From positions 1 through 51,750 of the forward strand of contig JAUWQY010000009.1 of assembly GCA_030610855.1 (NCBI GenBank): 51,750 bases of DNA, written 5' to 3'. The position numbers and the translations under genes were made by a program. The number at the start of each line of letters is the position of its first letter. Positions within the stretch are counted from its first letter, which is position 1. Positions 32,898 through 51,032 of this stretch are shown piece after piece. The notes under the pieces were generated by a model that was not told where the DNA came from, searched no databases, and saw nothing but the letters and a program-made list of their open reading frames with translations. Source of the DNA: Dehalococcoidia bacterium. GTDB lineage: Bacteria; Chloroflexota; Dehalococcoidia; GIF9; AB-539-J10.

Positions 32898-34280
32898 CTA
32901 CGCTTCCAGACAGGCAAGCGACTGTCGCACGGCCCTGAGCATGATCTCGTCCTCCTCCGGAAACACAGAACGTGGATCGAGAAGTAGGGCATCCTTCTCC
33001 ACCCGTGCAACGACGGGTGGTTGGTGCTGTCTCAGCCTTTGGGCCAAGTCTTGAATGCTGGCCTTCCCTGCCAGCCTAATGGCTACGACTCGGGTGGGCA
33101 TCCTGCTTCCGGGGAGGCTGCCTCCCCCGACCACCGACTCTGCAGGAATCACAGTGGCTGATTCTCCTAGAAACTGTGCCCATCTCTCGGCTCGTCTTTC
33201 TACTTCCGATAACGGCGTGGCAATGAAGCGGAGAACTGGTATCTTCTCCACAGCTTCGCCTTTCAGATAATGAGTCAGTGTGACAGACAGGGCGGCAATG
33301 CTGGCCTTATCAATACGCACGGCTCTGGCTAGCGGGTGTTTTCTTAACTTGCTAACTAACTCCGTCCGGCCCAGAATTATGCCTGCCTGGGGCCCGCCGA
33401 GAAGCTTATCCCCGGAGAAGAAGACCAGAGCAGCTCCAACAGAAATGCTATGCTGAACCTGAGGTTCGGGCTCCAGCCCGTAGTCAGTGGTATCGATGAG
33501 GCATCCGCTGCCAATGTCATCTAGCACCGGTATGTTGTGCCGCTGGCCCAGCTCGACCAGCTCTTCGAGCGAAACGGAGTTGGCGAAACCGGTAATCTTG
33601 AAGTTACTGGAATGCACTCGAAGCAAAGCTGCAGTTCTCGGGGTAATCGCTCCCTCGTAATCTGCCACATAGCTGCAATTGGTGGTACCCACTTCCACGA
33701 GCCTGGCTCCGCTCTCCCGCATTACCTCGGGTATTCGGAAGCCTCCACCGATTTCCACCGCCTGCCCGCGAGAGACTATGACTTCCTTCCTTCTCGCCAG
33801 AGCGCTGAGTGCCAGCAGCACGCCGGACGCGTTGTTGTTTACTACGAGAGCAGCTTCAGCATCGGTGAGATGGCAGAGTATCTGGTCCACGTGAGTCTGG
33901 CGAGAGCCTCTCTTTCCGCTTGCCAGGTCGAACTCCAAGTTGCTATAGCCTCGCGAGGCTAACTCTGCCGCTCGTAGCGCCTCAGTGCTGAGAGGAGCTC
34001 TCCCAAGATTAGTATGGAGAATCACGCCAGTAGCATTTATCACCGGCTGCAGGCTGAGACTCGCCATATCATGGGCTTCGCTCACAATCGAGTTTACTAT
34101 TTCCTCAAAAGATGGTGCTGGGCCTCCCATACCCAAGGACTTGCGAGTCTCCGACAGGCGGTGGCGAATTAGAGCCACAATCGTCTGACGGGCAAAAGCT
34201 TGGCAGAGTGTGCGTATACGACCGTCACAGAGCACTTCATCCACGCTGGGAAGCTGGCGAAATTCGGACTCGCCCATCAC
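32898..34280 (-). CDS. selA: L-seryl-tRNA(Sec) selenium transferase
   Basis: SelA converts seryl-tRNA(Sec) to selenocysteinyl-tRNA(Sec) using selenophosphate. This PLP enzyme of 460 residues has the family N-terminal domain (RQLPSVDEVL), VINATGVILHTNLGRAPLS and the PLP lysine in FFSGDKLLGGPQAG. Its ATG overlaps the selB stop as ATGA, so selB and selA are coupled. The whole bacterial Sec pathway (selA, selB, selD, tRNA-Sec) is on this strand within 5 kb. Confidence 0.95.
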   Translation of the reverse strand: MMGESEFRQLPSVDEVLCDGRIRTLCQAFARQTIVALIRHRLSETRKSLGMGGPAPSFEEIVNSIVSEAHDMASLSLQPVINATGVILHTNLGRAPLSTEALRAAELASRGYSNLEFDLASGKRGSRQTHVDQILCHLTDAEAALVVNNNASGVLLALSALARRKEVIVSRGQAVEIGGGFRIPEVMRESGARLVEVGTTNCSYVADYEGAITPRTAALLRVHSSNFKITGFANSVSLEELVELGQRHNIPVLDDIGSGCLIDTTDYGLEPEPQVQHSISVGAALVFFSGDKLLGGPQAGIILGRTELVSKLRKHPLARAVRIDKASIAALSVTLTHYLKGEAVEKIPVLRFIATPLSEVERRAERWAQFLGESATVIPAESVVGGGSLPGSRMPTRVVAIRLAGKASIQDLAQRLRQHQPPVVARVEKDALLLDPRSVFPEEDEIMLRAVRQSLACLEA

Positions 34281-36130
34281 CTCAACACCCTTTGATCGCC
34301 GACCCTGCGCGTTATCCTTTGGCCATCAAGGTGTTCCATCAGTGCTTTAGCGTATTTGCGGCTTGTCTGGAAAAGGTCACGCACTTCAGCCACGGTTATT
34401 GTTCCCTGGCTCTCGATGTGCTCGACAACCCGCTTCACCATCTCCTCGTAGGCTGAGGCAGTGAAGATAATCCCCTCATCTACCTTGACCACCTTTTTCT
34501 GCTCCAACAGCAGATTCAGTAGTTCAGGTTCCAAAGGCGAATCGGTAGGCGGGCAATAAGGGGATTCGGCCAGCATTCTCAGGAAAGCATCCACTCTGGT
34601 CTGTTGCGCTGGGGAGAGTCCAACACTATGCGAAGGAAGCCTCACCACTGCCCCCTCATCTGCAACGTTTCCATGTTCTGTGAGTTGTCGCACAATCCCG
34701 TTAAGGTGCTGGGGTTGTATCCTGAGGCGGCTCCTGAATTCCTCTCTGGGCATGCCCTGCCGGAGGGAGAATGAGGAATGATAGTCTTGCAGTAGCTTTG
34801 TTGCCTCCGCAACGAGATGCTTCCAGTAGCTGCAGGAAAAGAAGAGCTGACGCCCTTCGCCGCTGCTAACCAGCACTGCCTGCCCGGCTCTGGCTAGAGC
34901 TGCCAGCACCTTCCCGGTCTCCACTTCGGGAAGGCAACACTGAAGCGCAAGCTCCCTAACTTCAGATGTCCCCTTGGCCTCTAAGAGGGCAAGCACGGCA
35001 TCCTCGACTGTACCTTCTCTAGCCTTGAGGCTCTCTGTCACGGCAGCCTGATACCGACGGTGGCGCTTGGGGTGAGCGTCCACGATGTCGCCGCCGCCCA
35101 GTGTTCCCCTGGGAGAACGGATGACGAAAAGGTCGCCTTCTACTGCTGCTACTGCAAAAGTCAATCCTATCTGTGCCCAACCACTCTCGGTTGCGCTGAT
35201 TTTCTCTTTATCCAAGAGCCGGATTTTCCCAGCCACTTCACTGGCGCCCGTATGAAATGTGATAGACATATTGTGAGTTACGGGGCTGCTCAGGTCCGAC
35301 ACCGCTCGAAGCTTCACATCAAGCAACCGGGTCGGTTTGAGCCACCCTGGAGAGGCAATGACCATGCCGCGATCCAGCTCCTCAGACTGGATGCCGCCCA
35401 GGTTAATGGCCACGCGGCTGCCCGGAAGAACAAGGTCGGACCTATGCTTGTGAACCTCGATCCGCCTTACATGGGTTTCCAGCCCGGCCGGCAAGACTTC
35501 CACCTGCTGCCCAGTCCGGAGCGTACCATCAATCAGGGTCCCGGTGACTACAGTGCCGAAGCCCTTCATGGTGAAGATACGATCGATGGGAAGCCTGGGC
35601 CTGCCGATGTCCCTCCGCTGGAGGGTGTGATTCAGAAGATTATCAATTACTGCAGTCAACTCAGGCAGACCATCTCCAGTCACTGAAGAAACAGTCACGA
35701 TTGGCGCTTCAGCCAGAGTCGTGCCTTGTATCACCTCCTCAGCTTCCATGATGGCCAGGCCTAACCCTTCTTCATCAACGAGGTCCTTCTTGGTGATAAC
35801 CACGATGCCCTTCTTGATGTTGAGCAGGTCAATGATGGCCAGGTGCTCTCTGGTCTGAGGCATGACCCCTTCATCTGCGGCGATTACCAGCAGAGCCAGG
35901 TCGATTCCCCCCACTCCGGCCAGCATGTTTCTGACGAATTTCTCATGTCCGGGGACATCAACGATGCTGACTTCCTTTCCCCCGGGAAGCCGAAGCCACG
36001 CAAAGCCCAGGTCGATGGTCATCCCCCGCCTTTTCTCCTCGGGCAGACGGTCCGGGTCTATTCCTGTTAGGGCGCGAACAAGAACCGATTTCCCATGATC
36101 TACATGACCTGCGGTCCCCAGTACATACAT
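34277..36130 (-). CDS. selB: Selenocysteine-specific elongation factor SelB
   Basis: SelB delivers Sec-tRNA to UGA codons marked by a SECIS hairpin. The GTPase domain has G1 GHVDHGKS, G3 DVPGHEKF and G4 [10 protein letters not shown]-Tu-like domains 2 and 3 follow, and the C-terminal half consists of winged helices (for example [24 protein letters not shown]) that bind the SECIS RNA. Length (617) and order are standard. It is six bases downstream of selD and overlaps selA. Confidence 0.95.
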
Positions 36131-36136
36131 GGCGAT

Positions 36137-37180
36137 CTACGTTACTCTTATCTTGCCTTTGGGCTCTGCCACCACATGTCCGACGATAGTTGCATCATTG
36201 ATGCCCTCGTCATGCATTCTCCTGACCAGTACTTCTCCGTCTTTTGCCGGGAGCGAGATGAACAGGCCGCCGGAGGTCTGAGCATCAAAAAGAATCAGCA
36301 TCATCTCGTCAGATACGTGGGCCTCTATCATGTGGGCGCGAAATCCCCTGTTGCGGTGTGTTCCGCCGGGAACAAGTCCCCTCCTGACGTACTCCTCGAC
36401 CTTAGGCAGCAGTGGCACCGAGGGTGCATGTATTACCATGCCAACGTTAGCCCCTTGAATCATCCCGCAGGCGTGGCCGAGGAGACCGAAACCTGTAATG
36501 TCGGTGCAGGCATGCACCGTAACATCAAGCATCAGCTCTGACGCCCTCTTGTTCAGAGTAACCATCTGTTGAGTGAGCTGGGCCACAATTCCTTCCTCTG
36601 CGATGCCGGCCTTCATGGCCGTGCTTATGATGCCGCTCCCCAGAGGCTTAGTAAGCACCAGCACATCTCCTTCCACAGCTCCAGTCTTGGTTATCACTCT
36701 CTCAGGGTGGACTATGCCTATGACACAAAGCCCATACTTAAGCTCACGGTCGTCCACGCTGTGTCCCCCTACCAGCGACACCCCTGCCTCTGAGAGCTTG
36801 GCGATTCCTCCACGAAGGATTTCCCTCAGTATAGAGATATCCATGCTTTCTCTGGGAAAACAGACTACGTTCATCGCTGTGACAGGGCGACCACCCATAG
36901 CATAGACATCGCTCAGGGCATTGGCCGCAGCGACCTGTCCGAAGGTGTACGGATCATCAACTATAGGCGTGAAGTAATCAACGGTCTCGATAATAGCGAG
37001 ATCCTCCCTTAGCCGATATACCCCGGCATCGTCGCGTCCTTCCAGCCCGACGATCACATTCGGGTCAACAGGTAGCTCAAGCCCACAAAGTGCCCGGTCC
37101 AGGTCCCCTGGCCCCAACTTAGAGGCTCAACCTGCCCCTCGCACCGTTTCCGTCAACCGCAGATTAGGCTTGTTCTCCAT
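36137..37180 (-). CDS. selD: Selenide, water dikinase containing selenocysteine (UGA at codon 18)
   Basis: SelD makes selenophosphate from selenide and ATP. Reading from the ATG at 37180, which has GAAGGAGAG 6-7 nt upstream, the frame runs through an in-frame TGA at 37127-37129 into the conserved body. The local peptide reads TVRGAG-U-ASKLGPGDL, aligning with the catalytic Cys/Sec plus Lys segment of SelD, so the TGA encodes selenocysteine. A start after the TGA (TTG 37117) would remove the catalytic residue and is rejected. Downstream motifs include DDAGVYRL, DYFTPIVDDPYTFG, NALSDVYAMGG and GGHSVDD. The full product is 347 residues. A perfect TATAAT is on the minus strand at 37223-37228, with no clear -35. 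Confidence 0.93.
37096..37113 (-). promoter_or_regulatory. SECIS-like hairpin in selD mRNA
   Basis: Starting 13 nt after the UGA, GG-CCAGG pairs with CCTGG-A-CC (one bulged A) around the loop GGA. Position and size fit bacterial SECIS elements read by SelB, which lie within the coding sequence just after the UGA. Confidence 0.6.
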
Positions 37181-37477: not shown

Positions 37478-37628
37478 AGAATTCCCTTTCACTTACAGCG
37501 AGACACGCCCGCTGATCAATCCCGACTCAATTCCTTCGCCTACCTATTATCATCATCACATTGCCTTTTCTGGCCGGTCACTACCTAGGCAGCATACATT
37601 TTAGAGGAAATTGTTGCTTCTGGCAAAG

Positions 37629-37721
37629 CGGGAGCGGGGGGAGTCGAACCTCCATGGACATCGCTAAATGCCCACCAGCGGATTTGAAGTCCGTGAAGCC
37701 CACCGGGGCTCATCCACTCCC
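37629..37721 (-). tRNA. selC: tRNA-Sec (anticodon TCA)
   Basis: The minus strand folds as a 93-nt tRNA with an 8-bp acceptor stem (GGGAGTGG with CCGCTCCC, one G-T pair), discriminator G, anticodon loop CTTCAAA containing TCA (37687-37685), a long variable arm (TGGTGGGCATTTAGCGATG region) and T-arm GGAGGTTCGACTCC. The CCA end is not encoded. The long acceptor stem, long variable arm and UCA anticodon identify tRNA-Sec. It lies upstream of selD on the same strand. Confidence 0.95.
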
Positions 37722-38003
37722 ATCCTGCGTGTGAGAAGGTGCTATACATCATCAACTGCATATCTCCAGCCAGGGATACGTATGTGAAGCGCTCACGATT
37801 GAATACACCGGAGGCCTGTCTGAGCAGTTCTGCGATCGCATGTGCGCGAGGCAGTTACTCGCTTCTCTCAGCTCTGGGGTCTGCGAATGCCTTGGCAATT
37901 GTTCAAGAACCTGGAGCATTTTCGTAGTCAATATTCTACTACTTGAGGTGTCTTCGAACAAGCCCTCGATTTGAATCATCTAAAATCTAACCCAAGAGGG
38001 AGT
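37722..38003. other. Spacer between tRNA-Sec and the insertion sequence
   Basis: No supported gene. A 75-codon minus-strand reading (37752-37979) has no family resemblance. The right half ends at the left inverted repeat of the insertion sequence. Confidence 0.35.
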
Positions 38004-39341
38004 TGTCAAATCACAAAGAATCTAACTGAAGAATGATGATTCAGCCTGGTTAGTACTTTTAAAGGAGGTAAAACCGGGCTATGGAAAGGATGGACATGCA
38101 TTCAAGAAATGAATACCTGAGGCTATTAAGGGAAAGGTACCTCAAGGCCAAGGCCAGGAAAGAGAAGACGCAGCTCTTAGACGAGTACTGCCGTAATACC
38201 GGACAATCAAGGAAGTACGTCATCTGGAAGATACACAGGGCAGTTCTTAAACCGAGGCAAAGGAAGAAAAGGAAGGAGATATATGACGGTCAGGTCAAAG
38301 CTGCCCTGGCCAAGATATGGGAGATCTTCGACTATCCATGTGGGCAGAGGCTCAAGCCCCTATTAGAGACAGAGATAGAGAGACTAAGGGAGTTTGGGAA
38401 GGTTGAGATAACTGACGAGGTAGCTTTGAAACTTAAGACAATGAGTCCGGCAACAATTGATAGAAAGCTTAAGCACGAGAGAGAGTTCTTGCACCTTTTG
38501 AGAGCAAAAGGCGGACCCAAGGCAGGCTACCTTCTGAAGCAGAAGATTACATAAGGCTTACCGAGTGGGACACCTCACAGATTGGTTATGTGGAAGCAGA
38601 TTTAGTTGTTCATTGTGGCTCATCTACACTGGGAGAGTATATCAATACAGTGAGCAGCACAGATATTTCCTCCGGTTGGTGGGAAGGTGAAGCTATCATG
38701 GGGAAGTCTCAGGAGCATAGTTTTTGGGCTTTAAAGGAAATAAGAAAGAGGACTCCCTTTGAATGGAAAGGGTTGGACTCGGACAATGGCAGTGAGTTCA
38801 TCAACCAAATCTTGTACAAGTATTGCCGGCGGGAGGGGATTGAATTCACCGGGTCGCGGGCAACCAGGAAGAACGATAATGCCTATATTGAGGAAAAGAA
38901 CTGGATCCATGTGAGGAAGATATTTGGCTATCTAAGGTACGACAGCTATGAGGAGCTAGCTATAATGAACGATCTTTATCGTAACGAATTAAGGCTGCAC
39001 AAGAACTTTTCCCAGCCGGTGATGAAGTTACAGAGCAAAGAAAGAATAGGGGGCAAGGTGAAGAGAAGGTACGAAGTAGCGAAGACACCATACCAGAGGC
39101 TCATCGAGCCAAGCCAAATCCCCGAAGGGGTTGAAGAGGAACTCAAGGGAATATATCTGAGTCTGAATCCTGCCCAGCTGAAGAGGAGTATAGATGCCAA
39201 GCTAGCTAAGCTGTACCAGGCTTATGAGGAGAAAAAGAGAAGCCTATATGTCGATCCCCACGAGAAGCGAGTACCTCATATAGTTAGAAATTATATGATT
39301 CAACAATCCCCTGTTGGGTTAGGTACTTAAATGATTTGACA
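38004..39341 (+). mobile_element. Insertion sequence with 10-bp terminal inverted repeats
   Basis: TGTCAAATCA at 38004-38013 and its exact complement TGATTTGACA at 39332-39341 bound a 1338-bp element carrying one transposase region. Looser similarity (CTAAC) continues inside both ends. I see no obvious target-site duplication in the flanks. The element separates the selenocysteine locus from the hydrogenase locus and truncates a small minus-strand frame at its right end. A 65-bp piece of the same transposase is at 51686-51750. The IS family was not identified with certainty. Confidence 0.8.
38081..39330 (+). pseudogene. DDE (rve-type) transposase, frameshifted
   Basis: The first frame (38081-38554, AAAGGAGGT upstream) encodes a basic, helical DNA-binding half. 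The second (continuing to 39330) encodes the integrase-type catalytic core. Candidate catalytic residues are Asp in VEADLVVHCG, Asp in LDSDNGSEF and Glu in NAYIEEKNW. Near 38545-38556 the frame shifts: reading shifts to YIRLTEWDTSQIGYVEAD without interruption, so one base appears to be missing. This is either an inactivating mutation or a programmed frameshift; no clear slippery A-run is present, which favours inactivation. Confidence 0.75.
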
Positions 39342-39545: not shown

Positions 39546-40832
39546 CTATTTGAAGGATACTTGTAACAGGTGTGTAGAGCAGGAAATACAGGGGTCATAG
39601 GCTCTGACCAGCATCTCCAGAGTATGCCTGATCTCATCTTCAGGGCGACTGAGTATAAGAGGCACCAGAGTTTCCATATCCTTCTGGATGTTGTTATGGT
39701 TCTGGTTGGTGGGAATAACACAGTTGCCCTCAGTCAGTATTCCGTTCTCATCATAGGTGTAATCGTGGAACAGGATACCCCGGGGGGCTTCCACGGCGGC
39801 GATACCTCTACCTGCCCTGAACTTGGTTAGGTTATCCTCCTCTTCCAGTCCTCTAGCTAGCATCTGGTCGATAAGGTAAATGCTGTCCTCAACAGCGTGA
39901 AAGGTCTCGACGACTTGAGCCACAGTTATCATAAATGGGTTATGGCAGGGAGCATTCAGGCCGAGTTCTATGGCGGCTCTTTTGGCTCGAGGCAGGAGCT
40001 GGTCATGATTGATATTGAAGCGCGCCAGAGCCCCCACCATATAAGAATCCCGCTTGTTCTTTGTGTACTTGGCGGTGGAATGGGGGACACAGAACTCGTT
40101 AGTTACCTCAAGGTACTTATCCACAGGTACAAGACCCGCGTCGGTTGAGGCAATCTGACCACTGATAAAGGCATACTCTTTAGGGTCTTTCAGGGCAATA
40201 TACTCCGTTTCGCGATTAAAATCGGGAATTTTCAAGGTCTTGAACAGGTCCACCGTGATATCAAGGTCAGCCAGTGCATCCTCAAGTCTATTCCTAAGAG
40301 CTTCCAGTTCACTAAGCTTGGGTAGCTTGGCAAAGCCCCCAACCATGCAGGATAGCGGATGGGTCTTCCTGCCTGCCAGCGCCTCAGCCAGATTATAGGC
40401 CAGCTTCTTCAGACGTAGTGCCATCAGCACTACATCTTTATGCGTTTCTACCAAGGGGAAAACACTGCCTACTCCCAGGAAGTCCGGGGCAGCCAGGAAA
40501 AGGGCATGTAATACGTGGCTCTCCATTATTTCGGCGTTATAAAGAAGTTTGCGTAGGAGTAATGTCTGCTGTGATGGCTGGACACCGAAAGCAGCTTCGG
40601 TAGCCTGTATAGATGCCGTGGTGTGGGATATAGAGCAAATACCGCAGATCCGGGAGGCGATATGGGGGACGTCCTGATAGTTTCTGCCACGAAACATAGC
40701 TTCAAAAAATCGGGGTGATTCCGCAACCTCCCATATGAGTTCCTCAATCTTACCATCCGTGGCATTCAAAACAATGTTGCCGTGGCCCTCAACCCGAGTC
40801 ACCTGATGGACGCTAATATTTATCTTTTTCAT
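39546..40832 (-). CDS. hydA: [NiFe]-hydrogenase large (alpha) subunit, group 3 type
   Basis: This is the catalytic subunit binding the NiFe(CN)2CO centre. The two cysteine pairs are intact: RICGICSISH (Cys63, Cys66, His70) and DPCISCSTH (Cys415, Cys418, His421). Only seven residues follow His421 (LLQVSFK). This resembles the very short C-terminal extension of archaeal sulfhydrogenases, which is cleaved after cofactor insertion. Together with HydD, HydB and HydG modules this is a cytoplasmic, NAD(P)-linked group 3 (3b-like) enzyme. At 428 residues it is normal length for the group. It overlaps the small-subunit gene by four bases. Confidence 0.93.
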   Translation of the reverse strand: MKKINISVHQVTRVEGHGNIVLNATDGKIEELIWEVAESPRFFEAMFRGRNYQDVPHIASRICGICSISHTTASIQATEAAFGVQPSQQTLLLRKLLYNAEIMESHVLHALFLAAPDFLGVGSVFPLVETHKDVVLMALRLKKLAYNLAEALAGRKTHPLSCMVGGFAKLPKLSELEALRNRLEDALADLDITVDLFKTLKIPDFNRETEYIALKDPKEYAFISGQIASTDAGLVPVDKYLEVTNEFCVPHSTAKYTKNKRDSYMVGALARFNINHDQLLPRAKRAAIELGLNAPCHNPFMITVAQVVETFHAVEDSIYLIDQMLARGLEEEDNLTKFRAGRGIAAVEAPRGILFHDYTYDENGILTEGNCVIPTNQNHNNIQKDMETLVPLILSRPEDEIRHTLEMLVRAYDPCISCSTHLLQVSFK

Positions 40833-41569
40833 TTGGTCACCTCAGCATATGTATTGTAAATCTTAAACTTCTCAACCGCCTGTTCTACCGTCAACCCATA
40901 CTTCTTAAGTATATCCTTCTCTGAGTCAATGTTGGGGTCATCAACCAAGCCACGGCAGCCCCAACAGTGTCGACCGCTGTTGACGCATATAGCATCGCAG
41001 CCAGCCCTAGTTACCGGACCTAGACAGGTCATGCCTCTTTCAAAGACACAGACATTGCCTGCCATCTTGCACTCTACACATACAGGGTGGTTGGGTATAT
41101 CCGGTTCCTTGCCCAATAGAAGCGCCTTGATTACCTTGAGAAGCTCGGCGGTAATCGGAGGACAGCCTCGTACATAGTAGTCTACCGAAACGACCGCATC
41201 TACAGGGCGGGCTGGAATGGTATCGTAATATTTGGCGTCCTTCCCGTAGACTATCTTCAAGGCTTCTTCCATGGGTAGGTGATTCTTCAGGCAGTTGATT
41301 CCGCCAATACAGGCGCAGGCGCCTAAGGCGACAAGGACTTTCGCCTGTTCCCGTATCTTTTGCAGCCGTGGTATCTCCGACTCCCTGCTTATGCTCCCTT
41401 CAATGAAGGCAATATCGTAGTCATCTTCCCTCTCCGTCTTGACCTCTCTGAAGTTGACAATGTCCACCGCGCTAAGCAAATCAATAAGCTCTTCTCCGTC
41501 AAGATTGAGCACATCTAACTGACATCCTTCACAACCAGTAAAATCAAAGAACGCTACTTTAGGTTTCAT
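40829..41569 (-). CDS. hydD: [NiFe]-hydrogenase small (delta) subunit
   Basis: This subunit carries the iron-sulfur clusters that relay electrons from the NiFe site. Cysteine motifs are FTGCEGCQLDVLN (proximal cluster start), GACACIGGINCLKN and VRGCPP. A C-terminal segment is rich in Cys (CVECKMAGNVCVFERG, CLGP, CDAIC, CWGC), indicating additional clusters. ATG 41569 is chosen because MKPKVAFFDFTGC is the family N-terminus and it overlaps the preceding stop as TAATG; a start 36 codons upstream is rejected. At 246 residues it matches group 3 small subunits. Confidence 0.92.
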   Translation of the reverse strand: MKPKVAFFDFTGCEGCQLDVLNLDGEELIDLLSAVDIVNFREVKTEREDDYDIAFIEGSISRESEIPRLQKIREQAKVLVALGACACIGGINCLKNHLPMEEALKIVYGKDAKYYDTIPARPVDAVVSVDYYVRGCPPITAELLKVIKALLLGKEPDIPNHPVCVECKMAGNVCVFERGMTCLGPVTRAGCDAICVNSGRHCWGCRGLVDDPNIDSEKDILKKYGLTVEQAVEKFKIYNTYAEVTK

Positions 41570-43896
41570 TATACTGCCTCCCTTAGATTTCTCAGTTGGG
41601 CCAGGGTAAATACCGGTCCCTCCTGGCATACATAGACACCATTGATCTGACAGTGTCCACACTTGCCCACCCCACACTTCATCCTTCTCTCCAGTGACAG
41701 GATTATGTTCTCATCGGGAAGGTCTCTCTTCTTGAGTTGCCCGATGACAAAGCGGTACATTATGGGTGGCCCTACCACCACTGCCATGGTCTTCCTGGGA
41801 TCAATATCGACCTTCGGGATAAGGGTAGTAATAACCCCTACATTCCCCATCCAGCTCTCATCTCCTCTATCCACTGTCTCGTGAAATTCGATTTCTGGGC
41901 TCTTACTCCAGGCAGCAAGCTCGTCCAGGAATAACCGCTCTGCGGGCGACCTGGCTCCAAAAAGCAGGATGGCTCTACCAAAAGAGCTCCGGCGGTCAAG
42001 GACATACTGAACCAGCGAACGCATCGGGACGAGACCAATGCCTCCAGCTATGAAGAGAATGTCCTTGCCTTCAAGAGCCTCTAGTGGGAAGCCATTCCCG
42101 AAAGGACCGCGAATGCCCACCATGGCTCCCTTTTTCAGATTGTGCAGAGCGTTGGTCACATCGCCTACTTTTCTTACCGCCAGTTGGAAAGTCCCGTCCC
42201 TAGTTGGTGATGATGAGACGGAGACGGGTGCTTCCCCAATACCCATAACTGAGACCTCGACGAATTGTCCCGGTCGGTGCCCCAGGGCTTTACCGTCCTT
42301 GAGACTGAACTCAAAGACTTTCTCCCTTTCAGTCAACTCCTCGACCTTCACTAGTTCAGCAAGCCGAGGTGCGTACAATTCAATCTCCGGCCTCACTTCT
42401 CTGAAAATGCGCATGGCTGCTTCTTTGGCCTGGACCGATTCCACTATGGCGTTAAACGCCTCCAGCGGGCTTGCAATCTCAGCCAGGCAGGCGGTAGCAC
42501 ACCGACCACAGCCCACACAGCCAAATCTACCATATCTCTCCAGAATGTATTTCCCCTTACGAAATATCCGATGCCGAAGCCGGCTGGCTTTGTCATGCCG
42601 GAAATTTTCACCGGTGGCTACCTTGGCAAAATCAATCAGCACGCAGCCATCCCATTGCCGTAACCGCTGCCCGTCTTTCAGGTTCAGCGATACATTGTCT
42701 TTGACATCAAAGCAAAAACAGGTGGGACATACCATAACGCAGGAGCCGCAGCTAAGGCAGCTCTCGCTTCTTGATTCCCAATATGGGTCATCGTAGCTCT
42801 CTTCCAACAGCTTCGGCAACCTTTCCTTGGGTATATCAAGGGAGAGCTTATATTTAGCCAATGCCCCGTCTCGAACCGCTTTCTGTTTAGCTATCTCATC
42901 GCCAGTGGGTTCTCTTAGCTGGGCATGCTTTGCTAGGAGGTCGGCGCCCTTTTCTGAGCCTACGCTTACCATGTAGTCAGCGCCAATATTTGTTAGCAGT
43001 AGGTCAAAGCCAGTTTCAGTTAGGTGAGTATCCATGCTGGGGGCAAAGGATTTGGGAGACGGATTAAGGCAATCAACCCCGATGACGATGGTATTCTGCC
43101 GCCGGGCAATGTAGTTAGGGTCGGGATTGGTAGTCATAAACACATCATCCAGTAGCTCGATAGCCTTAATATCGTAAGGGTGTATGCCGATTATAGCTCT
43201 AGGGATGGCTTCGATCACCGGCTCAACCTTTGGCTCGTCCCCGATCTTGAACTTAAGCAGGGTTTCCCTTGCCGGCAGGAGATACTTAGTTGGTGGCGTA
43301 ACGGCAACATCATAATCAAGGTGGAGTTCCTCAAAGCTAGCTATTCTATCGTAAACATACTTGCCATGCCTAGACTTGACCCCAACTATCTCCATGTCTT
43401 TAGCCAGACTTTCCACCATGGATTTCAGACCTTCTTTAGTGATGACCAAGGACTTCTTAACCGCAACTACTTCTACAACAGGAGGTTTAGGTCGTATTTC
43501 CACCTCAGTAGTAACCGTCCGTTCCCGCCCTGCCGAATCAAGGGTTTCCCGGACAAGCCTTTCCAGGTCATCACGGGCAATCGGCCTGACTAGATAATGA
43601 ACAGCGCCAAGCTTCTTTGCCTCGACCGTTGTTTCTGCTGAAGGATAAGCAGTCATGATAATAGACTTAATCCACGGCCGTTGTGCCTTCACCTGCTTCA
43701 GCACCGCTATCCCGGCTTGCCCCGGCAACCCTATATCCAGAACCATAACGTTGAAGTCTTGTTTCTTTATCAGCTCCAGGGCTTCCTCGCCGCTTTCAGC
43801 TGTCGCCACCTGATAACCAGCATCTTTCAGCCAGTCCCTGATTGACTCACGCACAATGGGCTCGTCATCTACAACCAGAACTGAGTTCTCTTCCAT
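41569..43896 (-). CDS. Receiver domain-HydB-HydG fusion: hydrogenase electron-transfer subunit with CheY-like N-terminus
   Basis: The 775-residue protein has three parts. Residues 1-120 are a CheY-like receiver with acidic pair Asp10/Asp11, phosphoacceptor Asp54 (MVLDIGLPG) and Thr82, but Arg104 replaces the conserved Lys (YLVRPI). Residues about 145-490 are the HydB beta subunit of group 3b hydrogenase, with two 4Fe-4S sites at Cys380, 383, 386, 390 and Cys460, 463, 466, 470. Residues about 505-775 are the HydG gamma module: FAD motif RPGQFVEVSV, NAD motif AGGIGLVP and a terminal 2Fe-2S-type site (MKCGVGKCGHC). HydB and HydG are normally separate genes without a receiver. GGAGG precedes the ATG by about 9 nt. 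The receiver could let phosphorylation tune electron transfer to NAD(P); that is inference. Confidence 0.9.
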   Translation of the reverse strand: MEENSVLVVDDEPIVRESIRDWLKDAGYQVATAESGEEALELIKKQDFNVMVLDIGLPGQAGIAVLKQVKAQRPWIKSIIMTAYPSAETTVEAKKLGAVHYLVRPIARDDLERLVRETLDSAGRERTVTTEVEIRPKPPVVEVVAVKKSLVITKEGLKSMVESLAKDMEIVGVKSRHGKYVYDRIASFEELHLDYDVAVTPPTKYLLPARETLLKFKIGDEPKVEPVIEAIPRAIIGIHPYDIKAIELLDDVFMTTNPDPNYIARRQNTIVIGVDCLNPSPKSFAPSMDTHLTETGFDLLLTNIGADYMVSVGSEKGADLLAKHAQLREPTGDEIAKQKAVRDGALAKYKLSLDIPKERLPKLLEESYDDPYWESRSESCLSCGSCVMVCPTCFCFDVKDNVSLNLKDGQRLRQWDGCVLIDFAKVATGENFRHDKASRLRHRIFRKGKYILERYGRFGCVGCGRCATACLAEIASPLEAFNAIVESVQAKEAAMRIFREVRPEIELYAPRLAELVKVEELTEREKVFEFSLKDGKALGHRPGQFVEVSVMGIGEAPVSVSSSPTRDGTFQLAVRKVGDVTNALHNLKKGAMVGIRGPFGNGFPLEALEGKDILFIAGGIGLVPMRSLVQYVLDRRSSFGRAILLFGARSPAERLFLDELAAWSKSPEIEFHETVDRGDESWMGNVGVITTLIPKVDIDPRKTMAVVVGPPIMYRFVIGQLKKRDLPDENIILSLERRMKCGVGKCGHCQINGVYVCQEGPVFTLAQLRNLREAV

Positions 43897-43908
43897 TTCC
43901 GTAACCTC

Positions 43909-44100
43909 CTATTCTTGGCTTTCGCATTTAAGAAGCGTTTCTCGTATCAGCTCTAGGGCTTCCTCACCGCTTTCGGCTGTCGCTACCTGGTAACCAGCCT
44001 TCTTAAGCCGGTCCCTAATTGACTCCCGCACGATTGGCTCATCATCTACAATTAAAACGGTTTGTTGGTCATGTTTTCTAATCCTTACAACGCTACACAA
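43909..44100 (-). pseudogene. Truncated duplicate of the receiver domain
   Basis: This 63-codon frame contains VLIVDDEPIVRESIRDRL and YQVATAESGEEALELI, nearly identical to residues 6-43 of the adjacent fusion, then leaves the receiver fold with an unrelated 13-residue tail and stops. It lacks the phosphoacceptor Asp and everything after it. DNA similarity is high, so this is a partial tandem duplication of the 5' end of the fusion gene or of a shared ancestor. Its stop is 9 bases before the fusion's start codon. A functional receiver is excluded. Confidence 0.7.
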
Positions 44101-44197
44101 TCATTGACGAGCAAACCCTCAACTTGTCGTTTCATTTCGGTTTACTACACGCCTCACGAAGCACCACCCGCAAGATGCTTTTTGTGCCGTAAACAAG

Positions 44198-44665
44198 CTA
44201 TGCATTGGAATGCTCACTCAGCTCTTGACAAACGATTCTAACACAATTAGGGATTGCCTGCCTTGCTGCGGCTGTACACTTTTCACTGAAGGAATGTGCA
44301 TCTCCGACCTCGATGGCAAAGATGACAATCTGTCGCGGCAAAGCCAAACCGAGTCTCCTGCCAAGCTCAATAGCGATGACAAAGTCGAGGTCGTGTGACG
44401 TGTTGGCGTATCCGTTGGTATCAAATGCCTCGAGTTCGAGACGATAAATCTGGCCGGTCTTCCCTTCCATAGTGTGAATGGCATCGATAATAACAGCTCT
44501 ATCGTATCCAGCCAACAACTCCAAGCAGTCCATACCAGTCCCACTTGCCTCTATCACTGTTATATCTAGCTTGTTAAGCTTGTCTCGCAAAGCTCTGACG
44601 GCGTGGAGACCTACACTGTCGTCACCACGCATCGGATTGCCCATGCCCAATATTATCGTCCTCAC
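44198..44665 (-). CDS. Hydrogenase maturation protease
   Basis: This nickel-dependent endopeptidase of the HyaD/HycI/HoxW type trims the C-terminus of the large subunit once NiFe is in place. Motifs are LGMGNPMRGDDSVGLHA (first metal ligand region), VIIDAIHT and TSHDLDF with the conserved His. I prefer the GTG at 44665 (VRTIILGMGN, with GAGG about 11 nt upstream), which matches family length; the frame is open to 44731, so a longer N-terminus is possible. It would act on the short seven-residue tail of HydA. Confidence 0.85.
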   Translation of the reverse strand: MRTIILGMGNPMRGDDSVGLHAVRALRDKLNKLDITVIEASGTGMDCLELLAGYDRAVIIDAIHTMEGKTGQIYRLELEAFDTNGYANTSHDLDFVIAIELGRRLGLALPRQIVIFAIEVGDAHSFSEKCTAAARQAIPNCVRIVCQELSEHSNA

Positions 44666-44899
44666 CTTACCTATTATCCTCAAAGGCTTTTTCAAAACCA
44701 TCGCCACGGCCAGAGATAACCATAAGCCCATTTACTACAAGAGTTCTCTACCTTCAGTGGGAAATGAACCTCTGTCTGCTTTGAGTCCCAGATTCCCACA
44801 GCGAATAGCGATAAGGGTTAGGGAGGCTAGAGCTTGCCTTGCATTGAATATAGTGGACTGCATATTGCATCGCCCACTGTCAATAGCATAATCTTCTAG

Positions 44900-45510
44900 C
44901 TATGGCTTGTCCTTACGGAAAAAGCGTAAGGTTCCATAGCGGCAAGACTTTTCGCCGCCAGACAATTGCTTAAGCTCTTTCACCTTGTCTTCACTGAGAA
45001 AGAGGTATGTGTCGTGCCTATCCATCACCGCTGCTTCGAGAGGGCATGAGGAACATTCATAGTTACGCCTGCAAAGTCCATAAGGGCCGGCACCGAGCGT
45101 CAGCCAGAGGTGTTTATCGTATACTTTTCCCCCTTCTAATTCCTCTAGGGCCTTACCTATTATCCTCTCCAAGTCCGGAACCGTGAAAGGCTTAGGTAGG
45201 AAGTCGAGCACACCTAAACTCTTAGCCTTCTCGTACGTTTCTTCTGACGAATAGGCTGTAATGATCACTCCCTTTGTCTCCGGTTTGAGCGCCTTCGCCT
45301 GCTCGAATACTTGCAGGCCATCAATGCCTGGTAGCCTTAAATCAAGAACAATAAAAGCGAAGTCCTCATTTTTGATTCTCTCTAAGGTACCTCTCCAGTC
45401 TCAGTGCACTCTACCTCGTATCCGTCCTCCATAAGCCATTCCCCCGGGCTTTCCCTCACTCATTCGTGATCTTCTACAATCAGAATCTTCTTTTTCTTCG
45501 GCTCCATCAT
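44900..45510 (-). pseudogene. Response regulator with Cys-rich C-terminal domain, broken by a stop and a frameshift
   Basis: A good ribosome binding site (AAAGGAGG, 6 nt before the ATG at 45510) starts KKKKILIVEDHE, then an in-frame TGA (45460-45462), VRESPGEWLMEDGYEVECTETGE, and a one-base loss near 45384-45392. After the shift the frame gives RIKNEDFAFIVLDLRLPGIDG, VIITAYSSEE and FLPKPFTVPDLERII, completing a receiver with Asp and Lys intact. A C-terminal domain follows: HLWLTLGAGPYGLCRRNYEC, then SSCPLEAAV and a terminal LRFFRKDKP. Two independent lesions make it a pseudogene. The Cys-rich tail resembles one seen in other anaerobes but has no function I can name. Confidence 0.8.
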
Positions 45511-45523
45511 TTCTTGCCTCCTT

Positions 45524-46050
45524 TCACAATATCCTGACATTAGCTGCTCCTGAAGCCATAAGACCAGCTATGATACCGGTTCACAAGTTACCCAAGTTCA
45601 CGCTGACGGCTGCCCGAATTTCGCCTTTTGCTGTTTCAATCGAAACAAAAGCCTTCGATATGATCTAGACTACCTGCTCTACCACACTGAGTATTCGTCA
45701 CCATTTGCCTTGTGCCAATCCTACATTTATCCAGGTTTCGAGATGCTCGCCCAAATCTCCAACCCATGACTCTATCTTCTCAAGATTCCCATTAGCCAAA
45801 GCTGCTCTGGCTTCCTAAGTTGCTTCAACTGGACGCCGAGTGGCTAGGAGATCGTGCGAACCTATCTTCCCGACCTCCATGCTCACTGAGGGTGAGAAGA
45901 GCTTGCGTCACCTAGGGCTCCTAACGAATTCGACTTCTACATCACCCTCTGGGTATAAGCCTCAACACTGCGCCGAGGTCTCCTGCCCCGAAGGTCATGC
46001 TCTGGAATATCGTGTGCTAAAACAACACATTCTAGCTTGTCAAACCTCAT
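45524..46050 (-). pseudogene. DUF4926-like gene with multiple nonsense codons and frameshifts
   Basis: From the ATG at 46050 the sequence reads FDKLECVVLAHDIPEHDLR, then after frame changes AGDLGAVLR and LYPEGDVEVEFVRSPR. These segments fit a DUF4926 domain. The same last frame runs on as MEVGKIGSHDLLATRRPVEA, EARAALANGNLEKIESWVGD, LGEHLETWINVGLAQGKW and IISKAFVSIETAKGEIRAAV, interrupted by TGA, TAG, TGA, TAG and TGA codons, and ends at 45524-45526. Peptide sense is well preserved between lesions, so the decay is recent. It lies between hypE and the response-regulator relic in the same orientation and was probably part of the hydrogenase operon. Confidence 0.65.
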
Positions 46051-46141
46051 CGTAGTCCTCTAGGATAGTCAGTAACAAACCTTAGGAATACCCTCCCCTT
46101 TAAGTATTGTAACCAAGATGGTTACAATTTGCACTGTTTGA

Positions 46142-47188
46142 CTAACATATGCGAGGTAGCATGTCGCCCGTGAGCATATCAACTATTCTAGTGCCGCCAA
46201 CTCTTGTTCTCATTATAACCCTCCCCTTGGGGCCGGACAGCACCTCGCCGATAATGGTAGCCTCATGGCCGTAACGTGCCTTCCGCATTACTTGCACCAT
46301 CCTTTCGGCGTCCTCAGGTGCAACACAGGCAACCAGTTTGCCTTCGTTAGCCACATAAAGGGGATCGTAGCCTAGTATCTCACAAGCGGCAGCTACCTCC
46401 TCACGGATAGGAATTTGTTCCTCTAAAATGCAGATACCGGCCTTCGACTGCCGGGCAATCTCATTTAGTGTGGTGGCAAGACCGCCTCGGGTAGGGTCAC
46501 GCATGGCATGAACCTTATGGCTTGTCCTTAGCATGGCGTCTACCATATGGTTGAGAGGGGCAACATCGCTCTTAAAGCTGTTGCTGAAAGTTAAGCCCTC
46601 CCTTGCGGAGAGGACAGCGATACCATGGTCACCGATGGTGCCTGACACTATAACCATGTCTCCTGGTTGGGCATTGCTACCTGAGATTTTCACTTCTCCA
46701 GAGAGCAAACCTACACCGGCAGTATTGATAAAGAGACCATCAGCGCTACCCTTCTCAACTACTTTAGTATCACCAGCCACAATCTTTACCCTAGCCTCCT
46801 TTGCTGCCCTCTGCATTGAGGTCACAATTCTGCGTAGGGTTGAAATCGGGAGTCCTTCTTCTATGACGAAGGCAGCCGATAAATACAAAGGAGTAGCACC
46901 GACCATAGCCAAATCGTTGACAGTGCCACAGACCGCCAGCCTGCCAATGTCCCCTCCCGGCCAGGAGAGGGGGTTCACTACATATGAATCGGTGGTAAAG
47001 GCTATCTCATCTTCAGATAGCTGTCGCCTTTTAGAAATCCTATCGCTGTCTGTTAAGGGAAAGACGGCAGAGTCATCGCCGGCTTGCAGAATAGGATTGA
47101 TAAATCGAGGCATAAACAATGACTCAATTAAGTCGTGGCTGAGCTTGCCGCCACTGCCGTGGCCCAGGATTATTCTGGCCTTTCGCAT
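46142..47188 (-). CDS. hypE: Hydrogenase maturation factor HypE
   Basis: HypE dehydrates the carbamoyl group received from HypF on its C-terminal cysteine to a thiocyanate, the source of the CN ligands. The N-terminus has GHGSGGKLSHDLI and GDDSAVFPL, the ATP-binding region of the PurM/SelD-like fold has KIVAGDTKVVEKG, and the chain ends MLPRIC with the required terminal Cys. Length (348) is normal. It begins 4 nt after hypD. Confidence 0.96.
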   Translation of the reverse strand: MRKARIILGHGSGGKLSHDLIESLFMPRFINPILQAGDDSAVFPLTDSDRISKRRQLSEDEIAFTTDSYVVNPLSWPGGDIGRLAVCGTVNDLAMVGATPLYLSAAFVIEEGLPISTLRRIVTSMQRAAKEARVKIVAGDTKVVEKGSADGLFINTAGVGLLSGEVKISGSNAQPGDMVIVSGTIGDHGIAVLSAREGLTFSNSFKSDVAPLNHMVDAMLRTSHKVHAMRDPTRGGLATTLNEIARQSKAGICILEEQIPIREEVAAACEILGYDPLYVANEGKLVACVAPEDAERMVQVMRKARYGHEATIIGEVLSGPKGRVIMRTRVGGTRIVDMLTGDMLPRIC

Positions 47189-47192
47189 AACC

Positions 47193-48341
47193 TTACTCCT
47201 TCAATGTAACTGGTTTGTTGTTCGCCTGGGGTTCTCCTGTTTGTGAGAGAGCCTCACCTTCCTCCTCATAAAGATACCAGACAGAGCAAGTTCCCTCGGT
47301 TGAAACCATACACGGACCTACCGGATGTTCAGGGGTACAGGCTTTAGCGAAAAGGCCACACTCGTGAGGTGTAGATACACCACGTAGTATGTCCCCGCAG
47401 CAGCAGCCCGCCGCTTCCTTCGGAGGCCTGGTAACGATTTTAAAGGCACAGTCGGCATCGACCCGTTCGTACCGTTGACCTAACTTCAAACCGCTTTTAG
47501 GGATGATGCCGATTCCCCGCCAGCGAGCATCGGTAACATCAAAGACGGTACTCAGATACTTGAGGGCTATGGGATTTCCCTCTTTGCGAACGGCGCGACG
47601 GTATTGAATGTCCACTCGTGGTTCTTCAGCGCTGATCTGTTCCAATAGCATATCAATCGCTTGCAGTATGTCTAACGGTTCAAAGCCAGCAATAACACAG
47701 GGGATGCCATATTCTCGGGGAATGAATTCATATGGCTGTGAGCCGATAATAGTGCTCACATGCCCGGGACAAATAAAGCCGTCGATATGTACCTCATCGG
47801 AATCAAGCAGAGCCCTCATGGCTGGTGGGATCAATTTATGGACAGAAAGAAAGAAGAAGTTGTCAATCCCCAGTCGCTCTGCCTCAAGGATGGCGCTAGC
47901 TGTAGTTGGGGATGTCGTTTCAAAACCAACGCCAAGAAAGACCACTGATTTACGGGAATTATTTTCGGCAATCTTCAGGGCATCTAGAATGGAATAGACC
48001 ACTCTAATGTCAGCGCCGACAGCCTTAACTTGGGAAAGGCTGGAATAACTTCCTGGCACTTTCATCATATCACCGAAGGTGGTTAGGATCACTTGGGCAT
48101 TTTTAGCGAGAGCGATAGCTTTATCAATGTCAGCGTTAGGGGTTACACACACCGGACAGCCGGGACCGGAAAGCAGGTTGATCTTTTCTGGCAAGATTTG
48201 GCGGATGCCATGCTTAAAAATGGCGACGGTATGGGTACCACACACCTCCATTAGATTGGTCGGGCGCACCTTCTTTTCTTGTATTCTCAGCGCAAGGCCT
48301 CGACCTGCGGCAGAGTTACGAAACTCGTCAATAAATCTCAC
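47193..48341 (-). CDS. hypD: Hydrogenase maturation factor HypD
   Basis: HypD is the iron-sulfur scaffold on which Fe(CN)2CO is assembled with HypC. Conserved motifs are LMEVCGTHTVAIFKHG, GPGCPVCVTP, GFETTSPTTA and the 4Fe-4S region CCCGDILRG with CGLFAKACTPEHPVGPCMVS. At 382 residues it is of normal length. It lies between hypC and hypE on the same strand with short gaps. Confidence 0.96.
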   Translation of the reverse strand: MRFIDEFRNSAAGRGLALRIQEKKVRPTNLMEVCGTHTVAIFKHGIRQILPEKINLLSGPGCPVCVTPNADIDKAIALAKNAQVILTTFGDMMKVPGSYSSLSQVKAVGADIRVVYSILDALKIAENNSRKSVVFLGVGFETTSPTTASAILEAERLGIDNFFFLSVHKLIPPAMRALLDSDEVHIDGFICPGHVSTIIGSQPYEFIPREYGIPCVIAGFEPLDILQAIDMLLEQISAEEPRVDIQYRRAVRKEGNPIALKYLSTVFDVTDARWRGIGIIPKSGLKLGQRYERVDADCAFKIVTRPPKEAAGCCCGDILRGVSTPHECGLFAKACTPEHPVGPCMVSTEGTCSVWYLYEEEGEALSQTGEPQANNKPVTLKE

Positions 48342-48367
48342 CCGGTTTCACCTCGGACAGATCTGGG

Positions 48368-48592
48368 TTAATCGCCCATCCCTTCAGCAATCTCCTCAAA
48401 GAGGCGTATTGTTTCCTCTGCCTCCTTCTCATCCAGCTTCTGAATAGCAAACCCAGCGTGCAAGAGGACATAATCGCCCACCTGGACATCAGGCACAAGC
48501 ATTATGCTTGCCTGGCGGGCGAGCCCACCGACCTCTACTAATGCCTCTAGACTATCTATTTGTAATACTCTAACCGGTACCGCTAAGCACAT
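48368..48592 (-). CDS. hypC: Hydrogenase maturation chaperone HypC
   Basis: HypC carries the Fe(CN)2CO unit from HypD to the large subunit. It starts MCLAVPVRVLQID with the essential Cys2, and has the beta-barrel segments VEVGGLARQASIMLVPDV and VGDYVLLHAGFAI. At 74 residues it is normal. Its first 23 nt overlap the 3' end of hypF, indicating coupled translation. Confidence 0.95.
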   Translation of the reverse strand: MCLAVPVRVLQIDSLEALVEVGGLARQASIMLVPDVQVGDYVLLHAGFAIQKLDEKEAEETIRLFEEIAEGMGD

Positions 48593-51032
48593 GGGTACTC
48601 CCCCTTCTTAACTTGGGACTGGTAACTTTTGCGTTGGCAATCACCGCTTGACCCAAAGCAATGCCTCCATCGTTACAGGGTACCTGGTGATGAATATACG
48701 GTGTAAAGCCCTTCCTCCGCAGATGACCCAGAGTTCGTTTAAGGAGGTAAATATTCTGAAACACACCTCCACTGAGTGCCACTTTGCTTAGACCCTCTTG
48801 CTCCCGAATCAGACAGCAGACCACAGAGACCATCTCGGCCACGGCATTATGGAATTTGGCAGAAATAGTAGCGCTGGGAACTCCAGCTTTTAAATCGTGA
48901 ATGATACTGCAAAGGAGAGGCTCCTGGTCAATAACAACAGGAAGCTTACCTCTTGGCAGGGGCCAATAATATCCCTCTTTAATGCTCTTATCGGCAAGCA
49001 TTTCCAGTTCAATCGCCGCTTGTCCCTCGTAGGTGATGACATCACATACACCTAACAGAGAAGAAACGCCATCAAAAAGCCGACCGCAGCTAGAGGTGAG
49101 GGGAGAGTTAAGCCTTCCCTCAATCTGTCTTCTGACAATCTCAAGTTCCACGGGGTCTATCCGGTCAAACAGGGTAAGGTCGCTGGTCAGATTGCGTGGA
49201 AGATTATACAGATAGCTGATAGCCATGCGATACGGCTTTCTAATTGATGCCTCACCACCGGGCAGCACCACATAGTTCAAGTGAGCACGACGCTCAAAAT
49301 GCTGAAAATCACAAACTAGAAACTCGCCACCCCAGATTCGCCCATCCTCTCCATAGCCGGTTCCATCAAAGGCAACGCCTATTACCGGCTCCTGCACTCC
49401 ATTCTCTGCTAGGCAACTGGCAATGTGGGCGTGATGGTGCTGTACAGGCACAAATTGCGCTCCTCTAGGCAATTGCTCAGCACTGTTGCGTCTTAATTCG
49501 AGGGCATACTTCGTAGAGAGATATTCAGGATGGAGGTCATAAGCAATCACCTCTGGCAAGACCCGGAAAAGCCTCTTAAAGTGTTCTATCCCTGATTCAA
49601 AGGAGCTTAGGGTCTCTAGATTTTCCATATCGCCAATGTGCTGGCTAAGGAAGGCATAATTTTCCTTGGTAATACAAAAGGTGTTTTTTAACTCAGCTCC
49701 GCAAGCGAGCACCGGTCTCATTTCGAAGTCAAGTCTCACTGGGAAGGGGGCGTAGCTCCGTGAACGCCGAATAATAGCCTCTTTACCTTCGAATACCCTG
49801 GTTACCGTGTCATCGCAACGAATGTGGATATCACGGTCATGTAGCAGGAAAACGTCGGCTAGCATCCTAAGACGCTCCAGTGCTTCCTCATTACCTATGG
49901 TGATGGGCTCCTCGCTCATATTGCCGCTAGTCATAACCAGCGCTAGATTATCCGTCTCGTCTCCTCTTCTCTCCAGAAGCAGATAATGCAGAGGTGTGTA
50001 AGGTAGCATGACGCCTAGGTAGGAGTTATTGGGAGCGACCAAAGCTGAGATAGGTGATTCTCCTTTATGGCGCAACAGCACAATGGGTCGCTGCGGCGAC
50101 TCCAGAAGCTGCCTCTCAGCATCACTGACATGGCAATACCTTTCTACTGCCTGACAATCAAGAGACATGATGGCGAATGGCTTGTTCACCCGGCCCTTTC
50201 GCTCCCGTAGAAGAGATATCGCTTTGCTGTTGGTAGCATCGTAGGCTAAGTGAAAGCCACCGAGCCCTTTTACGGCGACAATGGCACCTCGACTAAGTAA
50301 GTGACGTGCCATCATGAAAGCTTCCTCACCCTCAGCGAGGCTGTCGCCTACGGCCTCCCCGTTAACCAGCCACACCCGGGGGCCACAAGTCGGGCAGGCG
50401 TTAGGCTGAGCATGAAAGCGACGGTCACTCGGGTTGTGATATTCCTCTTCACAGCTAGGGCACATCTTAAATGCCGCCATCGTGGTCTTTGGCCTATCGT
50501 AGGGAATATCTTTAATGATGGTAAAACGGGGTCCACAATTAGTGCAGTTAATGAAGGGATAGCGATAACGCCGGTCTAAGGGGTCGAAAAGCTCCCTGAG
50601 ACAATCCGGACAAATACAAATGTCGGGCGAGATTAATACGAACTTGTCTTCCTGCTCCTGGCTAGCTTGAATAATGAAGGACTGGTAGCCGACAGGAGGC
50701 AGAAGACTGCTCTCAATCCGTTCGATTACTGCTAAGGGTGGTGCCTTGAGTGTGATATCCGCAATAAATTCCTCTAACCTATTTGTGAGGCCTTCAACTT
50801 CTATGACCACTCCGCCGGTAGAGTTGAGCACCCAACCTTTCAGTTCGTGGTCATTGGCAAGGCGGTAGACAAAAGGTCGGAAACCAACGCCTTGCACTAT
50901 ACCCCGCACGATAATCCTGGCTCTGATCGGCTCAACGCCTACCGCCTCTGCCCGGCACGTTATGACAGGTGAACCTATCTCTCCCCTCTCAACAGCACGC
51001 CCCGCCAAATTTCCCCAGGTTGCTCGCTTCAT
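48570..51032 (-). CDS. hypF: Carbamoyltransferase HypF
   Basis: HypF uses carbamoyl phosphate and ATP to carbamoylate HypE. Domains in order: acylphosphatase (IIVRGIVQGVGFRPFVYRLA, near residue 40); two zinc-finger units (CPDC...CTNC and CPSC...CPTC, about residues 145-225); YrdC-like domain (AVKGLGGFHLAYDA, KPFAIM); and a Kae1-like domain (VQHHHAHIASCLAENG, GVAFDGTGYGEDGRIWGG, KVALSGGVFQN). It has 820 residues; the N-terminal 35 residues before the acylphosphatase are longer than usual, so the true start may be slightly internal. It begins 8 nt after the hypA-like gene. Confidence 0.96.
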   Translation of the reverse strand: MKRATWGNLAGRAVERGEIGSPVITCRAEAVGVEPIRARIIVRGIVQGVGFRPFVYRLANDHELKGWVLNSTGGVVIEVEGLTNRLEEFIADITLKAPPLAVIERIESSLLPPVGYQSFIIQASQEQEDKFVLISPDICICPDCLRELFDPLDRRYRYPFINCTNCGPRFTIIKDIPYDRPKTTMAAFKMCPSCEEEYHNPSDRRFHAQPNACPTCGPRVWLVNGEAVGDSLAEGEEAFMMARHLLSRGAIVAVKGLGGFHLAYDATNSKAISLLRERKGRVNKPFAIMSLDCQAVERYCHVSDAERQLLESPQRPIVLLRHKGESPISALVAPNNSYLGVMLPYTPLHYLLLERRGDETDNLALVMTSGNMSEEPITIGNEEALERLRMLADVFLLHDRDIHIRCDDTVTRVFEGKEAIIRRSRSYAPFPVRLDFEMRPVLACGAELKNTFCITKENYAFLSQHIGDMENLETLSSFESGIEHFKRLFRVLPEVIAYDLHPEYLSTKYALELRRNSAEQLPRGAQFVPVQHHHAHIASCLAENGVQEPVIGVAFDGTGYGEDGRIWGGEFLVCDFQHFERRAHLNYVVLPGGEASIRKPYRMAISYLYNLPRNLTSDLTLFDRIDPVELEIVRRQIEGRLNSPLTSSCGRLFDGVSSLLGVCDVITYEGQAAIELEMLADKSIKEGYYWPLPRGKLPVVIDQEPLLCSIIHDLKAGVPSATISAKFHNAVAEMVSVVCCLIREQEGLSKVALSGGVFQNIYLLKRTLGHLRRKGFTPYIHHQVPCNDGGIALGQAVIANAKVTSPKLRRGSTHVLSGTG

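Follow-up and report, generated by a model that had tools for sequence, protein, structure and literature searches.

The window analyzed here, a 51,750-nt stretch of contig JAUWQY010000009.1 (assembly GCA_030610855.1) from a Dehalococcoidia bacterium, carries on its minus strand a [NiFe]-hydrogenase operon in which one gene, rec-hydBG (41569-43896), joins a response-regulator receiver to two hydrogenase subunits. The gene is a single uninterrupted reading frame of 775 codons, with an ATG start and an AGGAGG just 5′ of it. Its product comprises a receiver domain (residues 1-119, encoded by 43540-43896), a flexible linker (residues ~123-147), a HydB-like 4Fe-4S module (~148-490) and a HydG-like FAD/NAD(P)H/[2Fe-2S] diaphorase (~501-775). 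That receiver, HydB and HydG share one frame had been proposed in a sequence-only reading, and the domain searches agree with it: Pfam places Response_reg at 6-115 (2e-28, covering profile positions 1-110 of 111), Fer4_22 at 379-474 (4e-31), FAD_binding_6 at 514-601, NAD_binding_1 at 615-717 and DHODB_Fe-S_bind at 736-768, while NCBIfam places HydB/ShyB at 153-476 and HydG/ShyC at 506-766, both under the equivalog cut-offs. The near-full Pfam span fits a complete (beta/alpha)5 receiver fold, as do the alternating strands and helices of the AF2 model, with pLDDT of ~82-95 over residues 1-120. In the same model (pTM 0.53) the domains are confident and residues 124-146 of the linker fall below 50, so the receiver is predicted to sit on a flexible tether; the AF2 models, at pTM 0.41 and 0.53, gave no resolved position for a receiver docking site. 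The linker varies between genomes and is the least conserved part of the fusion (16-28% identity), with a dN/dS of 0.41 between the window and G301, a genome of the same family.

The fusion lies, as first read, between a gene for a HycI/HyaD-type hydrogenase maturation protease (44198-44731, minus strand; Pfam, NCBIfam) and hydD, the small (delta) subunit gene (40829-41569, minus strand; Oxidored_q6 in Pfam, HydD/ShyD in NCBIfam), with hydA beyond (39546-40832, minus strand; Pfam NiFeSe_Hases). The start codon of hydD overlaps the fusion stop and hydD overlaps hydA, the three genes being translationally coupled. The maturation genes hypE, hypD and hypF, assigned by eye from their translations, lie 5′ of the hydrogenase (46142-51032, minus strand). 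On the other side, a split transposase-like element (38081-39330, plus strand), whose second ORF is weakly similar to IS3/IS481 transposases, separates hydA from a minus-strand selenocysteine cluster of selA, selB, selD and tRNA-Sec (32898-37180 and 37628-37722). SelD itself is apparently a selenoprotein, since reading through a TGA codon at ~37129-37127 gives the start MENKPNLRLTETVRGAGUASKLGPGDL; hence, ORF callers place its start too late.

The large subunit carries RICGIC near its N terminus and DPCISCSTH-LLQVSFK at its C terminus, that is, the RxCGxC and DPCxxC motifs with a processing peptide, and the HydB Fe-S and HydG FAD/NAD(P) subunits are encoded in the same operon, as judged from domains and fold matches. 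These features uphold the original assignment to a group-3b-like (HydABDG) [NiFe]-hydrogenase, and the window enzyme is predicted to be cytoplasmic and to couple H2 turnover to NAD(P)H. None of the NCBIfam equivalog cut-offs for HydA/B/G/D or ShyA-D was reached (e.g., 259 vs 700 for ShyA), and scores so far under the cut-offs point to a distant relative rather than an equivalog. The closest solved structures, by both sequence and fold, are chains C and B of Pyrococcus furiosus sulfhydrogenase I (9nez, 9nf0). That enzyme (HydBGDA) has the same four modules, with the same Fe-S, FAD and NAD(P)H domains, and hydD and hydA likewise follow in one operon; its HydB and HydG are the best matches. The difference is that in the window HydB and HydG form one polypeptide with an N-terminal receiver. 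Unfused hydrogenases of Dehalococcoidia and Anaerolineae are also close (HydB ~40-60% and HydG ~55-68% identical, in the order hydB-hydG-hydD-hydA), but they have separate hydB and hydG genes, lack the receiver and fall outside the fused clade described below; their hydB genes begin near the position that corresponds to the end of the fusion's linker. The window genome encodes a second, unfused HydB/HydG pair on another contig (C66; L096 4004-7301), preceded by an FrhB-like protein and a 137-aa protein that looks MvhD-like.

The domain-architecture search that the sequence-only reading had proposed returned receiver, HydB and HydG in one protein in 13 genomes besides the window, one of the 13 copies (in G040) being cut by a contig end. 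The class-wide search yielded full-length fusions in nine other genomes, namely eight of one Dehalogenimonas-like genus and UBA5748 (= G263); the further carriers are UBA5627 and AS06 (both from another collection), G040 and G301, the last with 80% identity to the window copy. With the window, the fusion is thus present in at least 14 genomes. Within the Dehalogenimonas-like genus, all eight genomes found in this search have the fusion, and seven of them are single-contig chromosomes, which we take to be Dehalogenimonas strains. An assembly join, or a chance fusion without function, might be suspected of a window drawn from a 76-contig draft with tandem receiver copies upstream of the gene. 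However, the identical architecture in 13 other genomes, seven of them single-contig chromosomes, leads us to reject a join, and the low dN/dS of the receiver argues against a functionless fusion; the chance that either accounts for the gene is negligible. The same orthologs dispose of both outcomes that the earlier reading had named against itself, an assembly join and homologs in which the receiver is always a separate protein. In a 47-row tree of HydB+HydG+HydD, the fused proteins form one clade (100/100), and unfused homologs found in the family to which the window genome belongs fall outside it. The fusion arose a single time; its present distribution in Dehalococcoidia is patchy, through transfer or differential loss. 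Enhygromyxa salina (L050 7605-9743), on a long branch that does not join the fused clade, has a HydB-HydG fusion without a receiver. No receiver was detected in the N-terminal additions to HydB/HydBG in this locus or in Woesearchaeota L057.

The genomic surroundings of the fusion in G301 and G040 indicate the probable wiring of the receiver. One G301 contig (C97) has the order HdrA-like end, histidine kinase, receiver-Cys protein and a solo receiver running off the contig; another (C36) starts with a solo receiver tail, followed by the fusion, hydD and hydA. Judging from the solo receiver split between them, with no overlapping sequence, the 2 contigs probably adjoin. The G301 kinase has a hydrophobic N-terminal half followed by HisKA and HATPase domains, and its frame contains one in-frame TAG (L105 ~1395-1397) between the hydrophobic part and the kinase core. 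In G040, a kinase of the same type stands on one contig in an hypD-hypE-kinase group convergent with hydA, and another contig carries the fusion, a solo receiver and the protease. In both kinases, the hydrophobic half looks membrane-spanning (topology judged by eye). With a kinase and 2 receivers beside the fusion in G301 and a kinase beside hydA in G040, the hydrogenase was probably the direct target of its own two-component system.

In the window, this input is in decay. A tblastn search with the G301 solo receiver recovered only a remnant (43915-44082, minus strand), its head joined to its tail by the deletion of ~50-60 codons that included the Asp54-Lys104 segment and with it the phospho-site. 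The receiver-Cys-rich-domain gene (44894-45507, minus strand), intact in its G301 ortholog, is a pseudogene here, broken by a frameshift and by a stop codon within the frame. Searching 43900-46140 with the G040 and G301 kinases found no kinase remnant. Between hypE and the receiver-Cys pseudogene there is an ORF-free stretch (45520-46140) that looks like decayed coding sequence. The receiver alignment confirms the residues first listed for the fused receiver: the acidic pair Asp10/Asp11, Asp54 and Thr82 are present, and Lys104 is replaced by Arg. That replacement is private to the window genome, with Lys in the other 13 of 14 fused receivers, and was accordingly rejected as a family feature. 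Other changes in the window receiver (R56G, D100H and F106I) fall at positions common to G301 and G040. By plain counts, the receiver has 15 changes on the window branch vs 6 on that of G301, and HydB has 25 vs 19, which is suggestive of an excess of receiver changes on the window branch; the dN/dS of the receiver in this pair is 0.07. In CheY, a Lys-to-Arg substitution still allows phosphorylation and impairs signaling. The idea put forward from the letters, that a two-component signal acts on the enzyme, therefore divides: the wiring is supported by G301 (kinase and 2 receivers) and by G040 (kinase), but a working switch in the window copy is unsupported, given the missing locus kinase, the 2 broken companion receivers and the Arg at 104.

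Other lineages have altered the phospho-site differently. Asp54 is invariant in 14 of 14 fused receivers. The acidic pair region reads D-S/A-D in Dehalogenimonas-type receivers and E-S-D in the UBA5748 type, the Mg2+-ligand Asp11 being Ser or Ala in all fusions of both types. With Asp11 lost in 2 lineages and Arg104 in the window, only G301, where all 5 canonical residues are intact, and G040 keep the full set. A kinase of the hydrogenase-locus type was not found in the Dehalogenimonas genomes, and the receiver dN/dS in Dehalogenimonas pairs (~0.02-0.13) is within the range of HydB and HydG. Retention of the receiver without such a kinase means that phosphorylation cannot be its only use there, and a receiver that has degenerated yet stays under constraint, attached through a flexible linker, is consistent with a pseudo-receiver still in contact with some partner. 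The Dehalogenimonas receiver thus appears to be a constrained pseudo-receiver, and that of the UBA5748-type fusion is perhaps one as well. Extended to the whole family, the same notion would make the receiver now purely a structural or docking element that aids HydBG assembly, dimerization or partner binding, its phospho-site residues being relics. The loss of Asp11 in 2 lineages and of Lys104 in a third while purifying selection holds, the missing kinase type in Dehalogenimonas, and the lost or broken kinase and companion receivers of the window are all as this account expects. It does not expect an unchanged Asp54 in all 14 receivers, nor a full active site together with a kinase in or beside the hydrogenase locus in G301 and G040, and we consider it less likely than the account favored below.

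Still less probable is that the receiver tethers the hydrogenase to the membrane kinase or brings it there, or else drains phosphate from that kinase as a sink, and that enzyme activity is not regulated at all. The hydrophobic, apparently membrane-spanning half of the G301 and G040 kinases and the long, poorly conserved linker, predicted to be disordered, suit such a role, which nevertheless fails to explain why kinase-less Dehalogenimonas keeps the receiver.

Fusion and solo receivers cluster together (92/90; 76/95 with more rows), and their nearest neighbors in the tree are receivers of a second gene cluster, whose central kinase carries an [FeFe]-hydrogenase domain. In the window genome this cluster lies on contig C11 (L095 1387-7075) and comprises a sigma-54-DBD-like protein, the kinase, an NtrC-type regulator and a receiver-TPR-Cys protein; the kinase has 664 aa with ferredoxin, [FeFe]-hydrogenase-like and FeS domains, and is also found in UBA5748, G204 and G210. 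Receivers of the cluster (NtrC and receiver-TPR proteins of window C11, UBA5748 and G204) are the closest to the fusion receiver, at ~50% identity, but their outputs are not enzymes: one is a TPR-Cys protein, the other a sigma-54 activator. The hydrogenase-locus kinases share their kinase core with the [FeFe]-domain family in a tree that is partly unresolved, and the G040 kinase is 60% identical to the C11 kinase over the core. Thus, kinases and receivers of the hydrogenase locus seem related to this cluster in parallel. The 4 H-cluster cysteines of the [FeFe]-domain kinase look retained. No HydG-type maturase was recognized in the 4 genomes that have this kinase, the window genome included; H2 sensing is therefore disfavored, and the kinase is more likely a redox or Fe-S sensor. 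Nor does its presence track the intact acidic pair, an association we rejected because UBA5748 has the kinase near a fusion that lacks the Asp pair.

In our view, the better-supported account, which we favor with some reserve, is that HydBG with its once-acquired receiver was ancestrally the output, on the hydrogenase itself, of a two-component system devoted to this enzyme, and that the input is now being lost in the window. The HydB+HydG electron-transfer/NAD(P)H module gained the N-terminal receiver once, as its own regulatory module. An ancestral membrane-anchored histidine kinase would have phosphorylated the receiver-Cys protein, the solo receiver and the receiver of HydBG, the solo receiver probably being a phosphate sink or competitor. 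Depending on whether the tethered receiver carried phosphate, the diaphorase itself may then have changed, or the way it docks on HydAD, or whether it sits at the membrane kinase, with consequences for H2/NAD(P)H turnover. On this account, phospho-input would have been lost in at least 3 lineages. In the window, where the loss is under way, the receiver probably keeps its fold and is fixed in a single regulatory state; alternatively, the related kinase on contig C11, the one with the [FeFe]-hydrogenase domain, could still supply it with a little phosphate. A stronger form, which we hold tentatively and at a little short of an even chance, is that the HydBG subunit is itself a response regulator through which the kinase switches H2 metabolism post-translationally, and that after kinase loss the receiver became a phosphorylation-independent allosteric module in Dehalogenimonas.

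Response regulators with enzymatic outputs are familiar from CheB, GGDEF/EAL and HD-GYP proteins. These share with the fusion an N-terminal receiver, a linker and a catalytic module, and an enzyme controlled post-translationally; the fusion differs in that a redox subunit of a multisubunit hydrogenase takes the place of the output domain. By membership the enzyme is a group-3b-like [NiFe]-hydrogenase, and by domain it is a response regulator whose output is unusual. We know of no precedent for a receiver fused to a hydrogenase redox subunit. No description of a receiver-hydrogenase fusion was found in open-licence full texts, and mention elsewhere is possible. Hup, Vhu and F420-type hydrogenases are listed in a comparison of Dehalogenimonas genomes (PMC13390414), whose consulted passages mention no receiver fusion. 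The initial statement that no described hydrogenase with such an architecture was known therefore holds for the open-licence papers searched, but the protein itself already lay, unremarked, in published Dehalogenimonas genomes.

Two-component systems usually target transcription or second messengers. Dehalogenimonas bacteria respire organohalides, live on H2 and serve in bioremediation. If the reading is right, a receiver within the redox subunit would mean direct, on-enzyme control of the H2/NAD(P)H balance. The fused proteins would also form a natural series, from an intact switch (G301 and G040) through a decaying input (the window) to a constrained pseudo-receiver (Dehalogenimonas), which makes the question of regulation directly testable.
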